NCBI RefSeq assembly: GCF_022267535.1
Contig: NZ_JAHNZV010000005.1
Span: 1-64,000, forward strand
DNA: 64,000 bases
Direction of reading: 5' to 3'
From: Psychromonas antarctica
Lineage (GTDB): Bacteria; Pseudomonadota; Gammaproteobacteria; Enterobacterales; Psychromonadaceae
Under the pieces are notes generated by a model that saw only the letters and a program-made list of their open reading frames with translations, was not told the DNA's origin and did no database searches. A program made the position numbers and the translations under genes. Below are positions 4,012-54,905 of the stretch, piece by piece (position 1 is the first letter of the stretch; the number at the start of each line of letters is the position of its first letter).

Positions 4012-7000
4012 ATGAACACGGGTAAAAGATCATTTAATACACTCTTCAGCACGATCACAGTGATGCTCTTATTATTTATGCTCGGTTGCCAGTCTGAAAA
4101 TAAAGAGCTTAACAATATAGTCGTTACACCCAAATCACTTATTTTAGATGTTGGTGAGAATGTTAGCCTTTCAGTTACCGGTATCTATTTAGATCAGACA
4201 GAGGCAGATATTACTCCTTTAATGCTTGATTCCGGTCTTTGGCTAAGTGCCAATGAATCAATCGTCACCATTAATAAAGGAACAGTTACTGCGGTTGGTC
4301 TAGGTGAAACCTATTTAATGATCAAACTAAATACTCATTCAGCAAAAATTAACGTAGTCGTATCAGCAAATAAGGCAAAAGCAGCCGAAAAAAATGGACA
4401 ACAAGACAATGCATTACAACCCGCTGACCACAAGTACTTAAAAATAGGTGCCACACTCAAAACAAAACGCTACCAACACAGCAGTAGTATAATCAACGGT
4501 AAACTTTACGTCGTTGGGGGGAACTCAGAAAGCGGCACCCTAAGCAGTATGGAGATATATGATCCCAAAACTGATAGTTGGACTGCGGGCGCACCATTAG
4601 CTACCGCCAGAAAAATGCATTCAGCGAATGTACTCGGTGGGAAACTTTATGTCGTTGGTGGTCGTGATGCTAAGGATAATGATCTAAATAGCCTTGAAGT
4701 TTATGATCCCGCCACCAATAAATGGCAATCAGGAGAGGCATTATCCACAGCACGTTATATGCACAGTAGCAGCGTGCTCAAAAATAAGCTCTATATAGTT
4801 GCCGGCGCCAATGCAAAAGGCTCTTTGGATAGCCTTGAGGTTTATGATCCAGTCACTGGAAGTTGGACAGTACGCGCGCATCTGAAAAAAGTGCGACGCG
4901 AACATAGTAGCAGCGTTCTAAACGATAAACTTTATGTTGTCGGCGGATATGGTACAACGCAATCATTAAATAGCGCAGAGCTATATGATCCGCTTAAAAA
5001 TAGCTGGACGGAGATAGCCCCTTTAGCTATAGCCCGCCGTGGACATACCTCGACAGTCGTTAAAGGTAAACTTTATGTTGTTGCAGGTTATGGTGTACTT
5101 GGTTACTTAAACAGTGTTGAAGTTTATAACCCAGCAACAGGTAGTTGGACAACCCAGTCCGCATTGGCTAATGCACAATATCGGCATACCACCAGCCTGA
5201 TAGACGGCATACTCTATTATATTGGCGGTAATGGCGAGGCGGGTAACTTAGATAACGTCAATAGTAATAATCTTGTTCAAGATAAATGGGTCCCGAGCAC
5301 AACCTTGAAAACGGCGCGACGAGATCACACCAGCAATATCATTAATGGCAAGCTTTATGTCCTAGGCGGACAAAATGATATTGGCACACTCAACAGTCTA
5401 GAAATTTTTGATTTCACAGCAGATACTTCAACCTCGGCAGCAAGTGACGTTGTCATTGCACCATCAACGCGAACCACTGCTACCGATAAAAACACGGCGA
5501 AAGCATCGCTTCAAGTAGCCATGCAACCATTGCCTCAACCTGAAATTTTGCTATTAGAAACGGCCACTGAAAGTAGCCTGAATGTTGCTTGGAAAGCCGT
5601 CGACAAAGCCACTATTTATAGTGTTTATGTGGCAGAAAAAACGCTTGCTGGTACGACTAACTTTGCTAAAGCAGGGACCACCAGCTCAATTAACTACAAT
5701 ATCAGCGGACTGATACAGGGTAAGCAATACAGTGTCAAAGTAGAGGCTTCTAACGACAGCAGCAGCGCTATCTCCGATATTAAATCAGCCTTGCTATATT
5801 CCAATACTCCTCACCTAGCAGTGGGCAGTCCATTAGTAAGTAACAGATACCAACATACGACTAACAATATCAATGGTAAGTTTTATATTGTCGGGGGGCA
5901 GAATAAAAATGGCACCCTAAGCAGTGTCGAGATTTATGATCCGGCTAATGACAGCTGGACAACGGGGACATCATTAAGAACAGCCCGAGATCTACATAGC
6001 AGCAGCGTAGTGGGAGGGAAGCTTTATATCGTCGGCGGGCGAGATAGTGAAGGCAACTATTTACGCAGTATGGAAATTTATAACCCGACGACAGACTCTT
6101 GGGCAAAAGGACCATCATTAACAAATGCACGTTATCTACACAGTAACAATGTTATCAATGGTAAAATTTATGTGCTTGGCGGTAGTGATCAAAATGGTTA
6201 CTCAAATAGTGTTGAAGTTTACAATCCAGCCACTCGGCGTTGGAGAGAGCGCGCGACACTAACAACCGCTCGAGAACAACACAGTAGCAATGTCATAGAA
6301 GGAAAAATTTATGTCACCGGCGGTTATAATGAGAGTGGATCATTAAACAGCACTGAGGTTTACGATCCCATTAGAAACCGTTGGACAATGGGTGCTACAT
6401 TAGCAACCGCTCGACGTTACCACACCAGTAATGTTATCAAGGGCAAGTTATATATTTTAGGCGGCTATTCCGCCAGTGGATATTTAAACAGCGTGGAGAT
6501 TTATGACCCGCTCGCAAATACGTGGACAAAGGGTCCAGCCATGACGACGGCTCGCTATGGGCATACCAGTAACCTTATCAATGGTAAATTGACAGTTATT
6601 GGCGGTATTGGTGAGACGGGACAATTAAACACGGTGGAGATCCTTGACAGCACTACTGATATCTGGACCGCGGGTAGCCCATTATCAACACGGCGCTATG
6701 GGCATAGCACCACCGTTAGCAATAACAAACTGTATATTATTGCTGGGTATAATGATAATAACTACCTAAATGATCTGGAGATTTACAATACTGCAGTTGA
6801 CAAATGGACTGACTCTATTGCTTTGTCGATAGCTCGTTATGAACACACAAGTAACGTACTCGATGGCAAACTGTATATTGTAGGTGGATATGGTGATGGC
6901 AACGCCTTAACCAATATGGAAGTTTTTGATCCAAGCTCTGCGCGTTGGGCTTCCGCTCCCGCATTGCAAACTGCTCGATACGCGCATACGAGTAGCGTTA

Positions 7001-7644
7001 TAAATAACAAACTTTATGTGATCGGTGGTCGTGATAGTCAAGGTGGCGATCTAGATAGTGTAGAAATTTATGATCCGGTCAGCCAAAGTTGGAGTACTGG
7101 AGAAAAAATGTTTACCGGTCGCTATCAACACACTAGCACTGTCATAAAAGGTGAAATTTATGTTGTTGGCGGATTTAATCGCAATAATGAGCCGTTAACC
7201 AGTATGGAGGTTTACGATCCGGTTACGAACAAATGGACCCGTAGTGCCAACTTAGCAATGGCAAGATATATGCACAGCAGCAATCTGCTTAATGATGAGC
7301 TTTATGTAACGGGAGGTTACAATGGCAGCGAAGGCGCCTTAAGTAATACTCAGACTTATGATCTAGTGACATTAATGGATCCCAGTGTTGTGGCTACATC
7401 CAGCAATCAAATAACGATCAGCTGGCCTGCAATATCTGCGGCAAGTGAATATCGTCTGCATTGGAATAAGAAAGGTAAGGTGGACAAGGAGGATAAATTC
7501 ATCACCATCGCTGCGATGGAGAATCCCACTTATGTACATAATAAACTGGCCGCTAATACGCAATATTATTATCGCTTATCTTGGCTGATTGGAGGAAAAG
7601 AGATTGTGCTTTCTAACGAGCAGTCTGCGATAAGCAAACGTTAA
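4012..7644 (+). CDS. Giant Kelch-repeat lipoprotein with Ig-like and fibronectin-III domains
   Basis: A 1210-residue lipoprotein. The signal peptide ends in LFMLGC, giving lipidated C26. A Big_2-type Ig-like domain (about 35-115) follows. Then come seven Kelch repeats (about 146-475), a fibronectin-III domain (about 509-593), eleven more Kelch repeats (about 605-1118) and a terminal fibronectin-III domain (about 1123-1210). Each 46-48-residue repeat has the pattern R-x-x-H-[ST]-[ST]-x-V-x-x-x-[KL]-[LI]-Y-V-x-G-G, then V-E-[IV]-Y-[DN]-P and a tryptophan. Kelch repeats form beta-propellers for binding or, rarely, catalysis; no galactose-oxidase copper ligands were recognised. It stands alone, with no operon partner. 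Ligand unknown; surface adhesion or carbohydrate binding is a guess. Confidence 0.85.
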   Translation: MNTGKRSFNTLFSTITVMLLLFMLGCQSENKELNNIVVTPKSLILDVGENVSLSVTGIYLDQTEADITPLMLDSGLWLSANESIVTINKGTVTAVGLGETYLMIKLNTHSAKINVVVSANKAKAAEKNGQQDNALQPADHKYLKIGATLKTKRYQHSSSIINGKLYVVGGNSESGTLSSMEIYDPKTDSWTAGAPLATARKMHSANVLGGKLYVVGGRDAKDNDLNSLEVYDPATNKWQSGEALSTARYMHSSSVLKNKLYIVAGANAKGSLDSLEVYDPVTGSWTVRAHLKKVRREHSSSVLNDKLYVVGGYGTTQSLNSAELYDPLKNSWTEIAPLAIARRGHTSTVVKGKLYVVAGYGVLGYLNSVEVYNPATGSWTTQSALANAQYRHTTSLIDGILYYIGGNGEAGNLDNVNSNNLVQDKWVPSTTLKTARRDHTSNIINGKLYVLGGQNDIGTLNSLEIFDFTADTSTSAASDVVIAPSTRTTATDKNTAKASLQVAMQPLPQPEILLLETATESSLNVAWKAVDKATIYSVYVAEKTLAGTTNFAKAGTTSSINYNISGLIQGKQYSVKVEASNDSSSAISDIKSALLYSNTPHLAVGSPLVSNRYQHTTNNINGKFYIVGGQNKNGTLSSVEIYDPANDSWTTGTSLRTARDLHSSSVVGGKLYIVGGRDSEGNYLRSMEIYNPTTDSWAKGPSLTNARYLHSNNVINGKIYVLGGSDQNGYSNSVEVYNPATRRWRERATLTTAREQHSSNVIEGKIYVTGGYNESGSLNSTEVYDPIRNRWTMGATLATARRYHTSNVIKGKLYILGGYSASGYLNSVEIYDPLANTWTKGPAMTTARYGHTSNLINGKLTVIGGIGETGQLNTVEILDSTTDIWTAGSPLSTRRYGHSTTVSNNKLYIIAGYNDNNYLNDLEIYNTAVDKWTDSIALSIARYEHTSNVLDGKLYIVGGYGDGNALTNMEVFDPSSARWASAPALQTARYAHTSSVINNKLYVIGGRDSQGGDLDSVEIYDPVSQSWSTGEKMFTGRYQHTSTVIKGEIYVVGGFNRNNEPLTSMEVYDPVTNKWTRSANLAMARYMHSSNLLNDELYVTGGYNGSEGALSNTQTYDLVTLMDPSVVATSSNQITISWPAISAASEYRLHWNKKGKVDKEDKFITIAAMENPTYVHNKLAANTQYYYRLSWLIGGKEIVLSNEQSAISKR

Positions 7645-7892: not shown

Positions 7893-10106
7893 CTACAAAC
7901 GCCTCGCATCGAGCACATTTTTTAACTGTGTTAATTTAGTTAATAACAGGGAGATCTCTTCTCTATTATGAACCTCTAAATTCAGGTCAATAGTGGCTGA
8001 TTGATTTTTTATATTAGAGAGGCTGTTTACAGCCAATAGATTCACTTTTTCATTGGACAACAATGTCGTAATATCTTTTAATAGCCCGCTGCGATCCAGC
8101 GCCTCAACACGCACGGTTAATGAATAACCGGAAGAGTGAGATTCCCCCCATGAAGCGTCAATAATCCTTTCCGGATGTGCCTCGCGTAGATCAGCAAGTT
8201 GTTCACACTGCTTACGATGCACAGAAATCCCCCGCCCTTGGGTGATATAACCTTCGATAGGTTCACCGGGAATGGGTTGGCAACAACGGGCCATTGTATG
8301 CATTAAATTACCAACACCATCTATGATGATATTCTTACTAACCGTCTTAGGTGTAAAACTATTTTTACGTTTTTCTAGCGCCTCAAGCACCGCAAGATCT
8401 TGTTGAGCCAATGTTTGCTGATGATGATAATTATCTAAAAAATGTATTAATTGGTTAATACGCAAATCACCATTACCAATACCGGCAAAAATATCCTCGT
8501 TTGAAGTGACATTAAAACGTTCAATCGCAGGGCTAATATCCGTTAATTTTAGTTTTACTTTACTCAGTTCAACTTCTAATAGTTCGCGCCCAGCTTGCAC
8601 ATTCTTATCACGGGCCTGTTGTCTGAACCAACTGGCTACTTTATGTCTTGCGCGCGGTGCATTGATATAACCTAAGTTCGGATTCAGCCAATCGCGACTC
8701 GGATTAGCTTCTTTTTGAGTTAGAATTTCAACTTGATCACCGGTCTTTAGTTGGTAAGTAAAAGGCACAATATGGTTTGCTATTTTAGCGCCAATACAGC
8801 GATGACCAACTTGGCTATGAATATAATAAGCGAAATCTAGTGGTGTCGCCCCTGCAGGCAAATCAATCACCTCTCCTTTGGGAGTAAATACATAAACACG
8901 ATCATCAAATACCTGACTGCGCACTTCATCAACTAAGTTTTCAGTATCAGAAATATCTTCCTGCCATGCCAGCAGTTTACGTAACCAAGCTATCTTCTCT
9001 TCATACCCACCCGCAGCCTTACCACCCGCAGCCCCTTCTTTATATTTCCAATGAGCAGCGACACCCAACTCGGCATTATCATGCATCTGTTGGGTACGAA
9101 TTTGCACCTCGATCGCTTTCCCTTCAGCACCCAACACAACCGTATGGATAGATTGATAGCCGTTAGGTTTGGGATTGGCAATATAATCATCAAATTCACT
9201 GGGAATATGGCGCCACTGGGTATGAATAATGCCTAATGCAGCATAACAATCTTGCAGTTTTTCAACCACCACCCGCACCGCTCGCACATCATACAGATCT
9301 TCAAATTGGAGATTCTTTTTCTGCATTTTTCGATAAATACTATAGATATGTTTTGGACGGCCATAGGCTGTACCATTAACCTGCATCTCTTTTAGCGAAT
9401 TTTTTACACGTTCAACAAACTCATGAATATAATTTTCTCGGTCAATACGTTTTTCATCAAGTTGTTTTGCTATTTTTTTATAGATCTCAGGTTGTAGGTA
9501 ACGAAAAGAGAGATCTTCTAATTCCCATTTTAATTGACCAATGCCTAAGCGATTTGCAAGGGGCGCATAAATTGATGATATTTCACCTGCTACTAGCACC
9601 TTTTTCTGCTCATCAGCGTCCTTAACTTGACGCAAAAAACATATCCGCTCGGCTAATTTGATCACCACTGCTCGTACATCTGCAACCATGGCCAACAACA
9701 TATGGCGTAAGTTATCGACTTGTGAGACGCTGATTTGTGATCCGCCTTGATTCTGCAGCGCGCGGATCCCTTCCATATCGGTCGCCCCCTTAACGAGTTT
9801 GCCGATACGTTTCCCCCATAATTCATCAACCTGCTCTTGGGTTAATATTTTATGATCAAGTAAGGGGAAAATAAGTGCAGCATTTAAGGTGTCCATATCC
9901 ATATTCAGGGTAACCAAAATTTCGACCATTTCGGTACCCAATTCTAATAGGTTTAATTGTTCAGGATGAGAACATAATGCAATGATTTTGTTGTTATTTT
10001 CTAATAACTTTTGTTGGTCTGAGGCACTTAACCCCAGTGTGGTCACCCATTTTTCAGGATCTTTCTGCGCGGTTTGATAAAAATGCGAATCTCGAACTGA
10101 AACCAT
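7893..10106 (-). CDS. relA: RelA, ribosome-associated (p)ppGpp synthetase I
   Basis: A 737-residue protein from the ATG at 10106, which follows GGGAG; a TTG 15 bases upstream would add five residues but breaks the conserved MVSVR start. The N-terminal hydrolase region lacks the HD metal motif, as in RelA and unlike SpoT. The synthetase domain has EFDDYIANPKPNGYQSIH and EVQIRT. TGS, a zinc-finger-type CC motif (ARCCQPIPG) and a C-terminal ACT domain follow. Length matches E. coli RelA (744). It makes pppGpp on stalled ribosomes when uncharged tRNA enters the A site. Transcribed alone, with an unusual hexamer-repeat leader directly upstream. Confidence 0.96.
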   Translation of the reverse strand: MVSVRDSHFYQTAQKDPEKWVTTLGLSASDQQKLLENNNKIIALCSHPEQLNLLELGTEMVEILVTLNMDMDTLNAALIFPLLDHKILTQEQVDELWGKRIGKLVKGATDMEGIRALQNQGGSQISVSQVDNLRHMLLAMVADVRAVVIKLAERICFLRQVKDADEQKKVLVAGEISSIYAPLANRLGIGQLKWELEDLSFRYLQPEIYKKIAKQLDEKRIDRENYIHEFVERVKNSLKEMQVNGTAYGRPKHIYSIYRKMQKKNLQFEDLYDVRAVRVVVEKLQDCYAALGIIHTQWRHIPSEFDDYIANPKPNGYQSIHTVVLGAEGKAIEVQIRTQQMHDNAELGVAAHWKYKEGAAGGKAAGGYEEKIAWLRKLLAWQEDISDTENLVDEVRSQVFDDRVYVFTPKGEVIDLPAGATPLDFAYYIHSQVGHRCIGAKIANHIVPFTYQLKTGDQVEILTQKEANPSRDWLNPNLGYINAPRARHKVASWFRQQARDKNVQAGRELLEVELSKVKLKLTDISPAIERFNVTSNEDIFAGIGNGDLRINQLIHFLDNYHHQQTLAQQDLAVLEALEKRKNSFTPKTVSKNIIIDGVGNLMHTMARCCQPIPGEPIEGYITQGRGISVHRKQCEQLADLREAHPERIIDASWGESHSSGYSLTVRVEALDRSGLLKDITTLLSNEKVNLLAVNSLSNIKNQSATIDLNLEVHNREEISLLLTKLTQLKNVLDARRL

Positions 10107-10120
10107 AGAAGCAACTCCCA

Positions 10121-10169
10121 AAACAAAAACAAAAACAAAAAAAATACAAATACAAATACAAATACAAAA
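10121..10169. repeat. Two hexanucleotide arrays in the relA leader
   Basis: Read on the plus strand, CAAAAA units have C at 10124, 10130 and 10136. TACAAA units then follow with C at 10147, 10153, 10159 and 10165. Both have a 6-bp period. The tract starts 15 bases upstream of the relA ATG, between the ribosome site and any promoter. Confidence 0.8.
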
Positions 10170-10249
10170 GAAGAGTTATCAAACTAGACTTTTATTTTAA
10201 TCACAAACCACTCAGCAATAAACCGTAATAGCCGATTTAAATACACAAA

Positions 10250-11587
10250 TTAGCAACGGATAAATAGCGCCATTGACTCCATATGTCCTGTCTGTGGGAA
10301 CATATCGAGTAAACCTAACTTATCTAACTTATAGCCTTTCTCAAGCAGCAACCCACTATCACGGGCGAGTGTCACTGGATCGCACGATACATAAACAATA
10401 TGTGATGGCTTAAGTGAGAGGATAAAAGGAATACAATCAAGTGCACCCGCGCGCGCAGGATCAAGCAATATTTTATTAAATTTCTGCATTGCCCAATGTT
10501 GTTTACCTAAATCAACGGCACTTAAATCAGCTTGGTAAAAAGTCGCATTGTTAATATGGTTAAGAGCCGCATTAGCAGTGGCACGATCCACCATTTTTTG
10601 TATCCCTTCAACCCCCACCGCAGAAGCCACTTTTTTAGCTATCGGCAGGGTAAAGTTACCCAAGCCACAAAAGAGATCTAAAACGATATCACCTTGGCTT
10701 AAGGCTAGCCAGTTCAAGGCCTGCGCGACCATTTTCTGGTTTACCTTACTATTAACCTGTAAAAAATCCGTGGGGCTAAAAGTATACGAGCAATCCCATT
10801 CAGGTAAGCGGTAACTAAGCTGCTCACTACCACTTAAACACACTAATGTAGAGGTAGAGTCTTGAGTGAAAAAATTTAATTGATGCAGCTCAGAAAACTG
10901 TTCAATCAGTTGCCGATCACTTTCAGGTAACGCCTTAAGATGTCGCAATAAAACGACAACACCTTGATCTGAAAAGATAAGTTCAATATGGCCTAAATCC
11001 ATTTTACTTTTAAATGAATTTAATAAGCTTTTTAGCGGCAAAATTAAACACTCTAATTCGGGCAGTAAAACAGGGCAAACTTTTTGAGTAATGAGATCGT
11101 TACTTTGCGGACGGCGAAATCCCATTTTCAACTGTTTCAGTTTTTTATCATATTGCAGTCCAAAACGCGCGCTACGTCGATAACACCATGCTTTATCAAC
11201 AATGGGCTCGGCAAGTTGCTGGGGCGATTGCTTCGCAAAACGTTTAAATAATGAAATTAAACCTGCCGATTTGATTTCAATCTGTTGTTGATGGCTTACG
11301 TGCTGCAAATGGCAACCACCACATTCATAATAGTGAGGGCAGCTCGCCTCGACACGCAACTCACTCACTTTATTGATTTTCTTAATCAAACCTGTGCTAT
11401 AACGTTTTTTACTTTCTAAAATCTGAATATCCAGCAATTCACCGATAAGCGCGCCATCAATAAAAAGTGGCTTATTGTCGAAAGAAGCGATACCACGACC
11501 TTGATGGTCCAAATTTCCTACTTGTACATTTTTTAAAATACGATTTTTTGCATTATTTGTGCGTGATGCTTTAAAGAACTGAGCCAT
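10250..11587 (-). CDS. rlmD: RlmD, 23S rRNA (uracil-1939-C5)-methyltransferase
   Basis: A 445-residue RumA/RlmD methyltransferase. An N-terminal TRAM domain (about 15-75) is followed by the 4Fe-4S ligand cluster CPHYYECGGC plus a later KVCPVL cysteine. The SAM-binding motif is LDLFCGLGNFTLPIA. The nucleophile is in YVSCDPVTLARD near the C-terminus. It methylates U1939 of 23S rRNA using S-adenosylmethionine. It is divergent from barA with about 125 bases between, the same pairing as in E. coli and Vibrio. Confidence 0.95.
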   Translation of the reverse strand: MAQFFKASRTNNAKNRILKNVQVGNLDHQGRGIASFDNKPLFIDGALIGELLDIQILESKKRYSTGLIKKINKVSELRVEASCPHYYECGGCHLQHVSHQQQIEIKSAGLISLFKRFAKQSPQQLAEPIVDKAWCYRRSARFGLQYDKKLKQLKMGFRRPQSNDLITQKVCPVLLPELECLILPLKSLLNSFKSKMDLGHIELIFSDQGVVVLLRHLKALPESDRQLIEQFSELHQLNFFTQDSTSTLVCLSGSEQLSYRLPEWDCSYTFSPTDFLQVNSKVNQKMVAQALNWLALSQGDIVLDLFCGLGNFTLPIAKKVASAVGVEGIQKMVDRATANAALNHINNATFYQADLSAVDLGKQHWAMQKFNKILLDPARAGALDCIPFILSLKPSHIVYVSCDPVTLARDSGLLLEKGYKLDKLGLLDMFPQTGHMESMALFIRC

Positions 11588-52871: not shown

Positions 52872-53544
52872 TGCGTTCTCTCATTAGTCCATCGTTAATC
52901 ATTTCACCATTTTTAAGGGTTAATGTGCGATAGCGCATTTTGGCTATCAACCCCAAGTCATGTGTTGCAATTAAGACAGACATGCCAAATTCATTTAATG
53001 ATTCAAATAAACTTAAAATCTCTAACGATAATTTAGGATCAAGATTCCCTGTTGGCTCATCAGCCAGCAGCAGAGGGGGTTGATTAATAATCGCCCGAGC
53101 AATACCAACACGCTGTTGTTCGCCACCGGAAAGGTGGATAGGTTCGTAATCTTCTTTACCAGACAAGCCTACCTTATCAAGCGCCACTAAACTACGACGT
53201 TTGATCTCATATTGATTGTAACCTTCAATTAATAGAGGCAACCCTACATTTTCTAATACCGTGCGGTTCATAAATAAGCGATGATCTTGGAATATCATAC
53301 CAATATGGCGACGCATATAAGGGATATCATTACCTTTAATATGACTGATATCATTCCCATTTATAACAATACGCCCCGTTGTTGGACGTTCCATTAAGCT
53401 GATTAATTTTAATAATGTACTCTTGCCGGAGCCAGAATGGCCCGTTAAAAAAGCCATTTCACCCTGTTTCAAGTGAAAATCCACCTCTTTCAATGCACAA
53501 AAATCACCAGCATAAATCTTATTGACCTCTTCAAATAAAATCAT
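52864..53544 (-). CDS. ftsE: Cell-division ABC transporter ATPase FtsE
   Basis: A 226-residue ATPase with Walker A GHSGSGKST (35-43), signature LSGGEQQR, Walker B LLLADEPTGNLD and switch His in IATHD. Length matches E. coli FtsE (222). ATP cycling is transmitted through FtsX to the periplasm. It overlaps ftsY by 4 bases and ftsX by 8, so the three genes are tightly coupled. Confidence 0.95.
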   Translation of the reverse strand: MILFEEVNKIYAGDFCALKEVDFHLKQGEMAFLTGHSGSGKSTLLKLISLMERPTTGRIVINGNDISHIKGNDIPYMRRHIGMIFQDHRLFMNRTVLENVGLPLLIEGYNQYEIKRRSLVALDKVGLSGKEDYEPIHLSGGEQQRVGIARAIINQPPLLLADEPTGNLDPKLSLEILSLFESLNEFGMSVLIATHDLGLIAKMRYRTLTLKNGEMINDGLMRERNG

Positions 53545-54905
53545 TGTTCATTCTCACCTTGTTCTAAATTTTCCTCTTTCGAGAAAAGTGCATCAATAAA
53601 CTCCTTGGCATTAAACTCCCGCAAATCATCAATGCCTTCACCTGTACCAATATAACGAATTGGTAATTTAAATCGGTCAGCAATCGAGAATATTATCCCT
53701 CCTTTTGCTGTTCCATCTAATTTAGTCAGCGTAATCCCCGTTAAACCAACCGATTGATCAAATAACTGTACTTGGCTAATCGCATTTTGCCCGGTACTCG
53801 CATCAATAGTAAGCATTATCTCATGGGGTGCGGTTACATCTTTTTTACGCATAATGCGCACCACTTTACTTAACTCATTCATTAAATGATCTTTGTTCTG
53901 TAAACGTCCAGCCGTATCTGCAATCAGAACGTCAATACCGCGAGCCTTCGCTGCATCCATCGCGTCAAATAAAACCGAGGCGCTATCTGAGCCTGTTTGT
54001 TGTGCAATAACAGGGATATTATTACGCTCTCCCCATACCTGTAACTGCTCGACAGCCGCTGCACGGAAAGTATCACCAGCAGCGAGCATGACCGATTTTC
54101 CTTGCTGCTGATATTTTTTAGCTAATTTACCTATGGTCGTTGTTTTACCAACACCATTGACTCCAACCATTAAAATAACAAAGGGTGATTGAGTTGCATC
54201 AATGATTAAAGGCTGCTCAACCTCATCTAATATTTCCAGAAGATCGGCTTTTAGTAGTCCGTATAAAGCCTCTGCATCTTTAAGCTGCTTGCGATCCGCA
54301 TGAACCGTCAGTTTATTAATTATTTTTGACGTGGTCTCTACGCCAATATCGGCAATAATTAACTGTTCTTCTAACTCTTCGAAGAGCTCATCATCAATTT
54401 TTTTCCCTTTAAATAGCGAGAATAAACCACTGCCAATGCTTAAACGGGTTTTAGTTAAGCTTTGTCTGAAACGAGCAAAGAAACCCAATGTTTTTTCTTC
54501 TTTTTTAGACTCTCGCTTTTCTACAGCTCGCTTTTCTGCGGCTAGCTTTTCTGCGGCTAACTTTTCTGCAGCTTGCTTTTCTGCAGCTAACTTTTCTGCA
54601 GCTAGCTTTTCTGCGGCTAACTTTTCTGCAGCTTGCTTTTCTGCAGCTAACTTTTCTGCAGCTAGTTTTTCTGCAGCTAGTTTTTCTACAGCTAGCTTTT
54701 CTGCAGCTAGTTTTTCTGCGGCTAGTTCTTCTGCAACTCGCTTTTCTGCAGCTAGTTTTTCTGCAGCTCGCTTTTCTGCGGCTAGTTTTTCTGCAACTCG
54801 CTTTTCTGCGGCTAGCTTCTCTGCAACTAACTTCTTAGCTTCAATATTTTCATCTTGCGCTGATTTTTTACCAAACCAAGAAAATAGACCTTTCTTTTTT
54901 TCCAT
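53541..54905 (-). CDS. ftsY: Signal recognition particle receptor FtsY with expanded repeat region
   Basis: A 454-residue SRP receptor. After the membrane-binding start MEKKKGLFSWFGKK, residues 25-129 are 21 tandem five-residue units of the K-L-A-A-E type, predicted to be one long charged helix. The NG domain follows: GVNGVGKTTTIGKLA (G1), DTAGR (G3) and TKLDGTAKGG (G4). It docks SRP-ribosome complexes to SecYEG. The acidic A domain of E. coli FtsY is here replaced by the repeat helix. First gene of ftsY-E-X. Confidence 0.95.
   Translation of the reverse strand: MEKKKGLFSWFGKKSAQDENIEAKKLVAEKLAAEKRVAEKLAAEKRAAEKLAAEKRVAEELAAEKLAAEKLAVEKLAAEKLAAEKLAAEKQAAEKLAAEKLAAEKLAAEKQAAEKLAAEKLAAEKRAVEKRESKKEEKTLGFFARFRQSLTKTRLSIGSGLFSLFKGKKIDDELFEELEEQLIIADIGVETTSKIINKLTVHADRKQLKDAEALYGLLKADLLEILDEVEQPLIIDATQSPFVILMVGVNGVGKTTTIGKLAKKYQQQGKSVMLAAGDTFRAAAVEQLQVWGERNNIPVIAQQTGSDSASVLFDAMDAAKARGIDVLIADTAGRLQNKDHLMNELSKVVRIMRKKDVTAPHEIMLTIDASTGQNAISQVQLFDQSVGLTGITLTKLDGTAKGGIIFSIADRFKLPIRYIGTGEGIDDLREFNAKEFIDALFSKEENLEQGENEQ
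54519..54833 (-). repeat. In-gene 15-bp tandem repeat with a perfect 60-bp duplication
   Basis: Twenty-one 15-bp units encode the FtsY pentads. Bases 54541-54600 and 54601-54660 are identical, which indicates a recent tandem duplication of four units. The unit length keeps the frame. Confidence 0.9.

Follow-up and report, generated by a model that had tools for sequence, protein, structure and literature searches.

The relA leader of Psychromonas antarctica carries an array of T-rich hexamers directly before the Shine-Dalgarno site. The position of this array, its uniqueness, its presence in two sister species and its differing unit number are direct observations. It is probably a young, lineage-specific microsatellite in a U-rich leader, grown by slippage from a T-rich tract, and its change from about three to eight units is likely to be neutral or of small effect. 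In such a scheme, a T-rich tract before the Shine-Dalgarno site, common in Psychromonas relA, would have expanded by replication slippage, and the resulting array would be transcribed as a U-rich part of the relA 5' leader where, by analogy with other leaders, it may aid ribosome loading via a putative binding of ribosomal protein S1. The array is rated as ordinary, and a regulatory role has a low probability. It cleanly illustrates the rise of a short array in one lineage, within a T-rich leader.

The hexamer array and the start of relA

The window, which is the whole stretch of DNA that was analysed, comprises 64,000 nucleotides of contig NZ_JAHNZV010000005.1. In it, relA (7893..10106, minus strand) encodes a protein of 737 residues with RelA_SpoT, HD_4, TGS, ACT_4 and RelA_AH_RIS domains. 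It is preceded by an rlmD-like (uracil-5) RNA methyltransferase gene (10250..11587, minus strand; tRNA_U5-meth_tr and TRAM domains), which we take to be rlmD from the synteny with barA-rlmD-relA of E. coli. The gap between the two genes is the relA leader (10107..10249, minus strand; 143 nt). The array (10120..10169, minus strand; about 50 bases, 78% T) lies between the rlmD stop and the Shine-Dalgarno site GGGAG (10115..10119, minus strand), which directly adjoins its 3' end, and the distance from the array to the relA ATG is 13 nt, the Shine-Dalgarno site included. On the coding strand the order is TTTTG, three TATTTG units, TATTTTTTTTG, two TTTTTG units and TTTT, followed by GGGAG. The original prediction had described the plus-strand letters of the same stretch as two hexanucleotide arrays, CAAAAA x3 and TACAAA x4, in the relA leader just before the ribosome site. 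These repeats and their placement are confirmed, and TRF joins the two blocks into one array (period 6, 8.5 copies, score 65, 91% matches). Since relA and the preceding rlmD are both minus-strand genes, that strand is the better one to read, and on it the array is a single T-rich run of T[A/T]TTTG units. The units are imperfect and interrupted, and the array falls outside the relA reading frame.

The start of relA is best placed at the ATG at 10106-10104 (minus strand), since all 24 genus genomes match RelA from residue 1. This ATG is separated from GGGAG by 8 nt, and GGAG or a near form begins 9-13 nt 5' of the ATG in 24 of the 24 Psychromonas relA leaders. The TTG listed as an open reading frame start (10119..10121, minus strand), for which an interplay with the array at initiation had been proposed, is unlikely to be in use. 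It overlaps the Shine-Dalgarno site, its G being shared with GGGAG, and upstream of it there are only U-rich repeats, without a Shine-Dalgarno site of its own. Such an interplay is not supported, as the 24 genus RelA proteins align from the ATG.

Among arrays with a period of at most 8, the relA-leader array has the highest TRF score in the window. Over 100 shuffles of the window that preserve dinucleotides, the best score for such periods is 39, compared with 65 for the real array, and 3 of the 100 reach 65 at a longer period. When the leader is shuffled in the same way (141 nt, two bases off the final leader coordinates), a period-6 array with a score of at least 50 is seen in none of 5000 shuffles, and a score of 65 is reached at other periods in 21 of the 5000, because the leader is so T-rich. 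The array exceeds chance for period 6, and the head-to-tail arrangement of short units beyond chance is as in a microsatellite. The exact core of three TATTTG units occurs once in the 3.9 Mb genome (300 contigs), and 305 kb of this genome, window included, holds one other array with a period of at most 8 and a score of at least 50 (7-bp unit, 3.9 copies, score 54).

Occurrence of the array in Psychromonas and in the order

The genus comparison covers 24 Psychromonas genomes (P. antarctica and 23 others), with one genome per species. The array is found in two of them, P. antarctica and its sister, the MAG GLG-1, and the other 22 lack it, what precedes GGAG in them being a short T-run or less. 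In GLG-1, one TATTTG, two TTTTTG and TTTT precede GGAG, which TRF scores as about 3.3 copies (a number from one metagenome assembly, for a MAG that is 85% complete), compared with 8.5 copies in P. antarctica. The earlier suggestion that the repeat number can change is therefore borne out between species, and a unit number differing between relatives, at one genome per species, is again as in a microsatellite. In the RelA tree the two array-bearing species group together, consistent with one change, with a support of 88/87 that falls under the starred level of the tool. The array appears to be young, and it varies between species, because only these two species carry it, with different unit numbers. 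In its short head-to-tail unit, its apparent youth and the unit number differing between close relatives, the relA array is like the bacterial microsatellites that change by slipped-strand mispairing. It is unlike them in being imperfect and interrupted, in lying outside a reading frame and outside a promoter spacer, and in that its variation is known only between species.

The unit itself is found elsewhere in the order. Runs of four exact TWTTTG units occur in 13 of 394 genomes, and P. antarctica is absent from this set because its units are interrupted. Fifteen such arrays were viewed (one in each of 12 genomes and three in the sister), of which several lie inside long reading frames. Judged from its occurrence in 13 of 394 genomes and in these reading frames, the TWTTTG unit seems generally slippage-prone. 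Before relA, a period-6 array with a score of at least 30 is found in none of 79 of 80 contig loci except that of the sister (L032). In this set, L065 was excluded (its match begins at a contig edge), and Psychromonas accounts for 17 of the 80 loci, which overlap largely with the records of the genus comparison. An order-wide pattern of two units before a RelA-like start matches in 3 of 394 genomes, P. antarctica, the sister and G233. The G233 match falls within a different gene and was rejected as a relA array.

It is possible, but unlikely, that the array is a selected U-rich enhancer of fixed length, kept for RelA translation and invariant within a species. A T-rich tract before GGAG is seen in many Psychromonas relA genes, and the 20 nt that lead up to the Shine-Dalgarno site have a mean T content of 0.56 in the 24 Psychromonas relA leaders, compared with 0.35 over 75 genes in 305 kb of the P. 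antarctica genome. For P. antarctica relA it is 0.80, and no other gene among the 75 reaches 0.7. These T contents also favour the preferred reading, in which the array grew from such a tract. The array core is also more conserved than the surrounding gap: the two species are identical in 22 of 25 columns over the last array units together with the first bases of the Shine-Dalgarno site, in 60 of 126 columns over the gap minus the array core, and in 59 of 73 columns over the rlmD tail. This conservation could reflect selection, which would count against near-neutrality, and slippage homogenisation could also give it. Against a selected enhancer, 22 of the 24 species lack the array and the only two carriers differ in unit number.

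S1 binds with higher affinity to U- or AU-rich sites upstream of the Shine-Dalgarno site, and these may be translational enhancers (PMC10931766). The relA array resembles them in its place immediately before the Shine-Dalgarno site and, as its T contents indicate, in its U-richness. It differs from them in being built of repeats and present in two species only, with a role of S1 that is putative. The S1 part of the preferred reading is also opposed by Flow-seq of natural E. coli leaders, in which U-rich sequences are commoner in leaders of lower efficiency (PMC9604319).

Predicted folding of the leader

The relA leader does not appear to be a structured element, as its folding energy is near that of shuffles (z -0.64), and no Rfam family matches at E <=1 in 9900-10500. 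It had been proposed that a change in unit number could alter the leader structure. Predicted folding at 37 C does not support an alteration that hides the start: for 0 to 8 TATTTG units the unpaired probability is 0.19-0.20 at the Shine-Dalgarno site and 0.58 at the ATG. At 10 C the predicted value for the Shine-Dalgarno site varies within 0.07-0.14 over 0-8 units, with no trend. In the 40 nt that precede this site, the unpaired value at 37 C is highest at two to four units (0.73-0.76), compared with 0.66 at eight units and 0.59 in the absence of units, and the predicted effect of unit number on the openness of this region is modest.

These calculations also bear on the view that the array is a contingency locus, in which frequent slippage would lengthen or shorten a U-rich standby site for ribosomes, tune the translation of RelA and give a heritable cell-to-cell variety of the stringent response. 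This is very unlikely, and the further notion that such a slippage-prone standby site is a heritable dial for RelA translation, giving populations of this species cells with differing stringent-response set points, deserves slightly less credence still. The variable stringent-response output of the original prediction would require unit number to vary within a species or a culture. In favour of a contingency locus are the differing unit number of the two species, the array abutting the Shine-Dalgarno site, and the 40 nt before this site in P. antarctica, which at 10 C are predicted to be the least paired (0.556) among the 23 of 24 genus leaders that could be scored. Against it, unit number hardly affects how far the Shine-Dalgarno site and the ATG are predicted to pair at 37 C, and at 10 C the value for the Shine-Dalgarno site shows no trend. 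The array is also made of imperfect, interrupted units, a feature that as a rule reduces slippage. The literature searches on this yielded no example of a relA repeat, only papers on C9orf72 and related repeat-expansion disease and one on mecillinam resistance in Klebsiella. If the unit number did set the RelA output, a central stress regulator, and not a surface structure, would be subject to variation by repeats.

Dispersed elements, promoters and other repeats

A dispersed element of ~130-200 bp, which has inverted ends (ATACCAATCCGC ... GCGGATTGGTAT) and contains a (TTTTTG)n that varies in length, is seen at L162:1470-1640, L146, L155 and L173-L192 of the sister genome (G018) and at L193 and L194 of P. 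antarctica. It has the appearance of a small repeat, either palindromic or mobile and non-autonomous, and a literature search on Psychromonas repeats and MITEs found nothing. Counting pieces apart, the element has 58 matches in the sister, 20 in G006 and 7 in P. antarctica. Copies in the sister hold about one to six TTTTTG units, and the three TWTTTG arrays of the sister sit inside the element.

That the relA array is a remnant of this element, common in the sister, has only a slight chance of being correct. The shared TTTTTG unit, which adjoins TATTTG in one element copy, and the matches in both array-bearing genomes are in agreement with such an origin. It is weakened by the flanks: local alignment finds no element flanks beside either relA array, with chance-level scores in seven of eight comparisons (one p 0.047), and both anchored alignments are also at chance (p 0.36 and 0.79). 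The derivation from the element was therefore rejected.

To return to the reading as a young microsatellite, transcription probably runs through the array and makes it a U-rich portion of the 5' leader. This follows from three points. A consensus scan of the minus strand of the leader finds no sigma-70-like match. In E. coli, three relA promoters are reported within rlmD and one at its end (PMC7593582), and one of them is a sigma-54 promoter that yields a long leader (PMC4591121). Finally, the rlmD-relA gap, which ranges from 30 to 292 nt over the 24 genomes, is only 30-65 nt in 6 of them, which leaves little room for a promoter. One strict sigma-54-like pattern has no match in rlmD, where a sigma-54 site may nevertheless be present. 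No intrinsic terminator was found in the relA leader, and the sole terminator-like site on the minus strand (10457-10442) lies within rlmD and is no more than shuffles give. If the array is transcribed, slippage would alter the length of the leader, and neither promoter spacing nor the distance between the Shine-Dalgarno site and the ATG.

In a promoter-spacing switch, unit number would alter transcription because the array separates two promoter elements, or the promoter from an activator site. This design is known at nadA, porA and hifA/hifB (PMC3899988), but it is hardly credible here, because the 13 nt from array to ATG exclude a promoter element downstream of the array on a leadered transcript, the consensus scan finds no sigma-70-like elements in the leader for the array to lie between, the E. 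coli promoters lie in and at the end of rlmD, and the gap is so short in six species. The spacing change between promoter and start that had been envisaged in the original prediction is thus not upheld. The relA array shares with the nadA, porA and hifA/hifB repeats a short repeat array upstream of a gene; it differs in lying downstream of the likely promoter region and in being without known on/off switching. More generally, upstream repeats need checks of strand, start codon and promoter before they are called switches.

By eye, the rlmD-relA gaps of one Psychromonas subclade (L015, L017, L019, L020, L021, L022 and L023) hold a recurring block like CTTTATAAGTTAATAATTTTAAGTATTATTA, which could be a terminator or a promoter, and the gap of L007 holds a long inverted repeat of about AGGACTGAAGTCCC ... 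GGGACTTTAGTCCT.

Two other repeats lie in the window. At 54515-54833 there is a 15-bp repeat (21.3 copies, TRF score 428) within the reading frame 53541-54905 (minus strand), which presumably encodes FtsY with a long N-terminal stretch of the AEKLA type. At 4012-7644 a protein of 1210 residues with, by eye, a lipoprotein-like start has many LYVVGG-type units that resemble kelch repeats.
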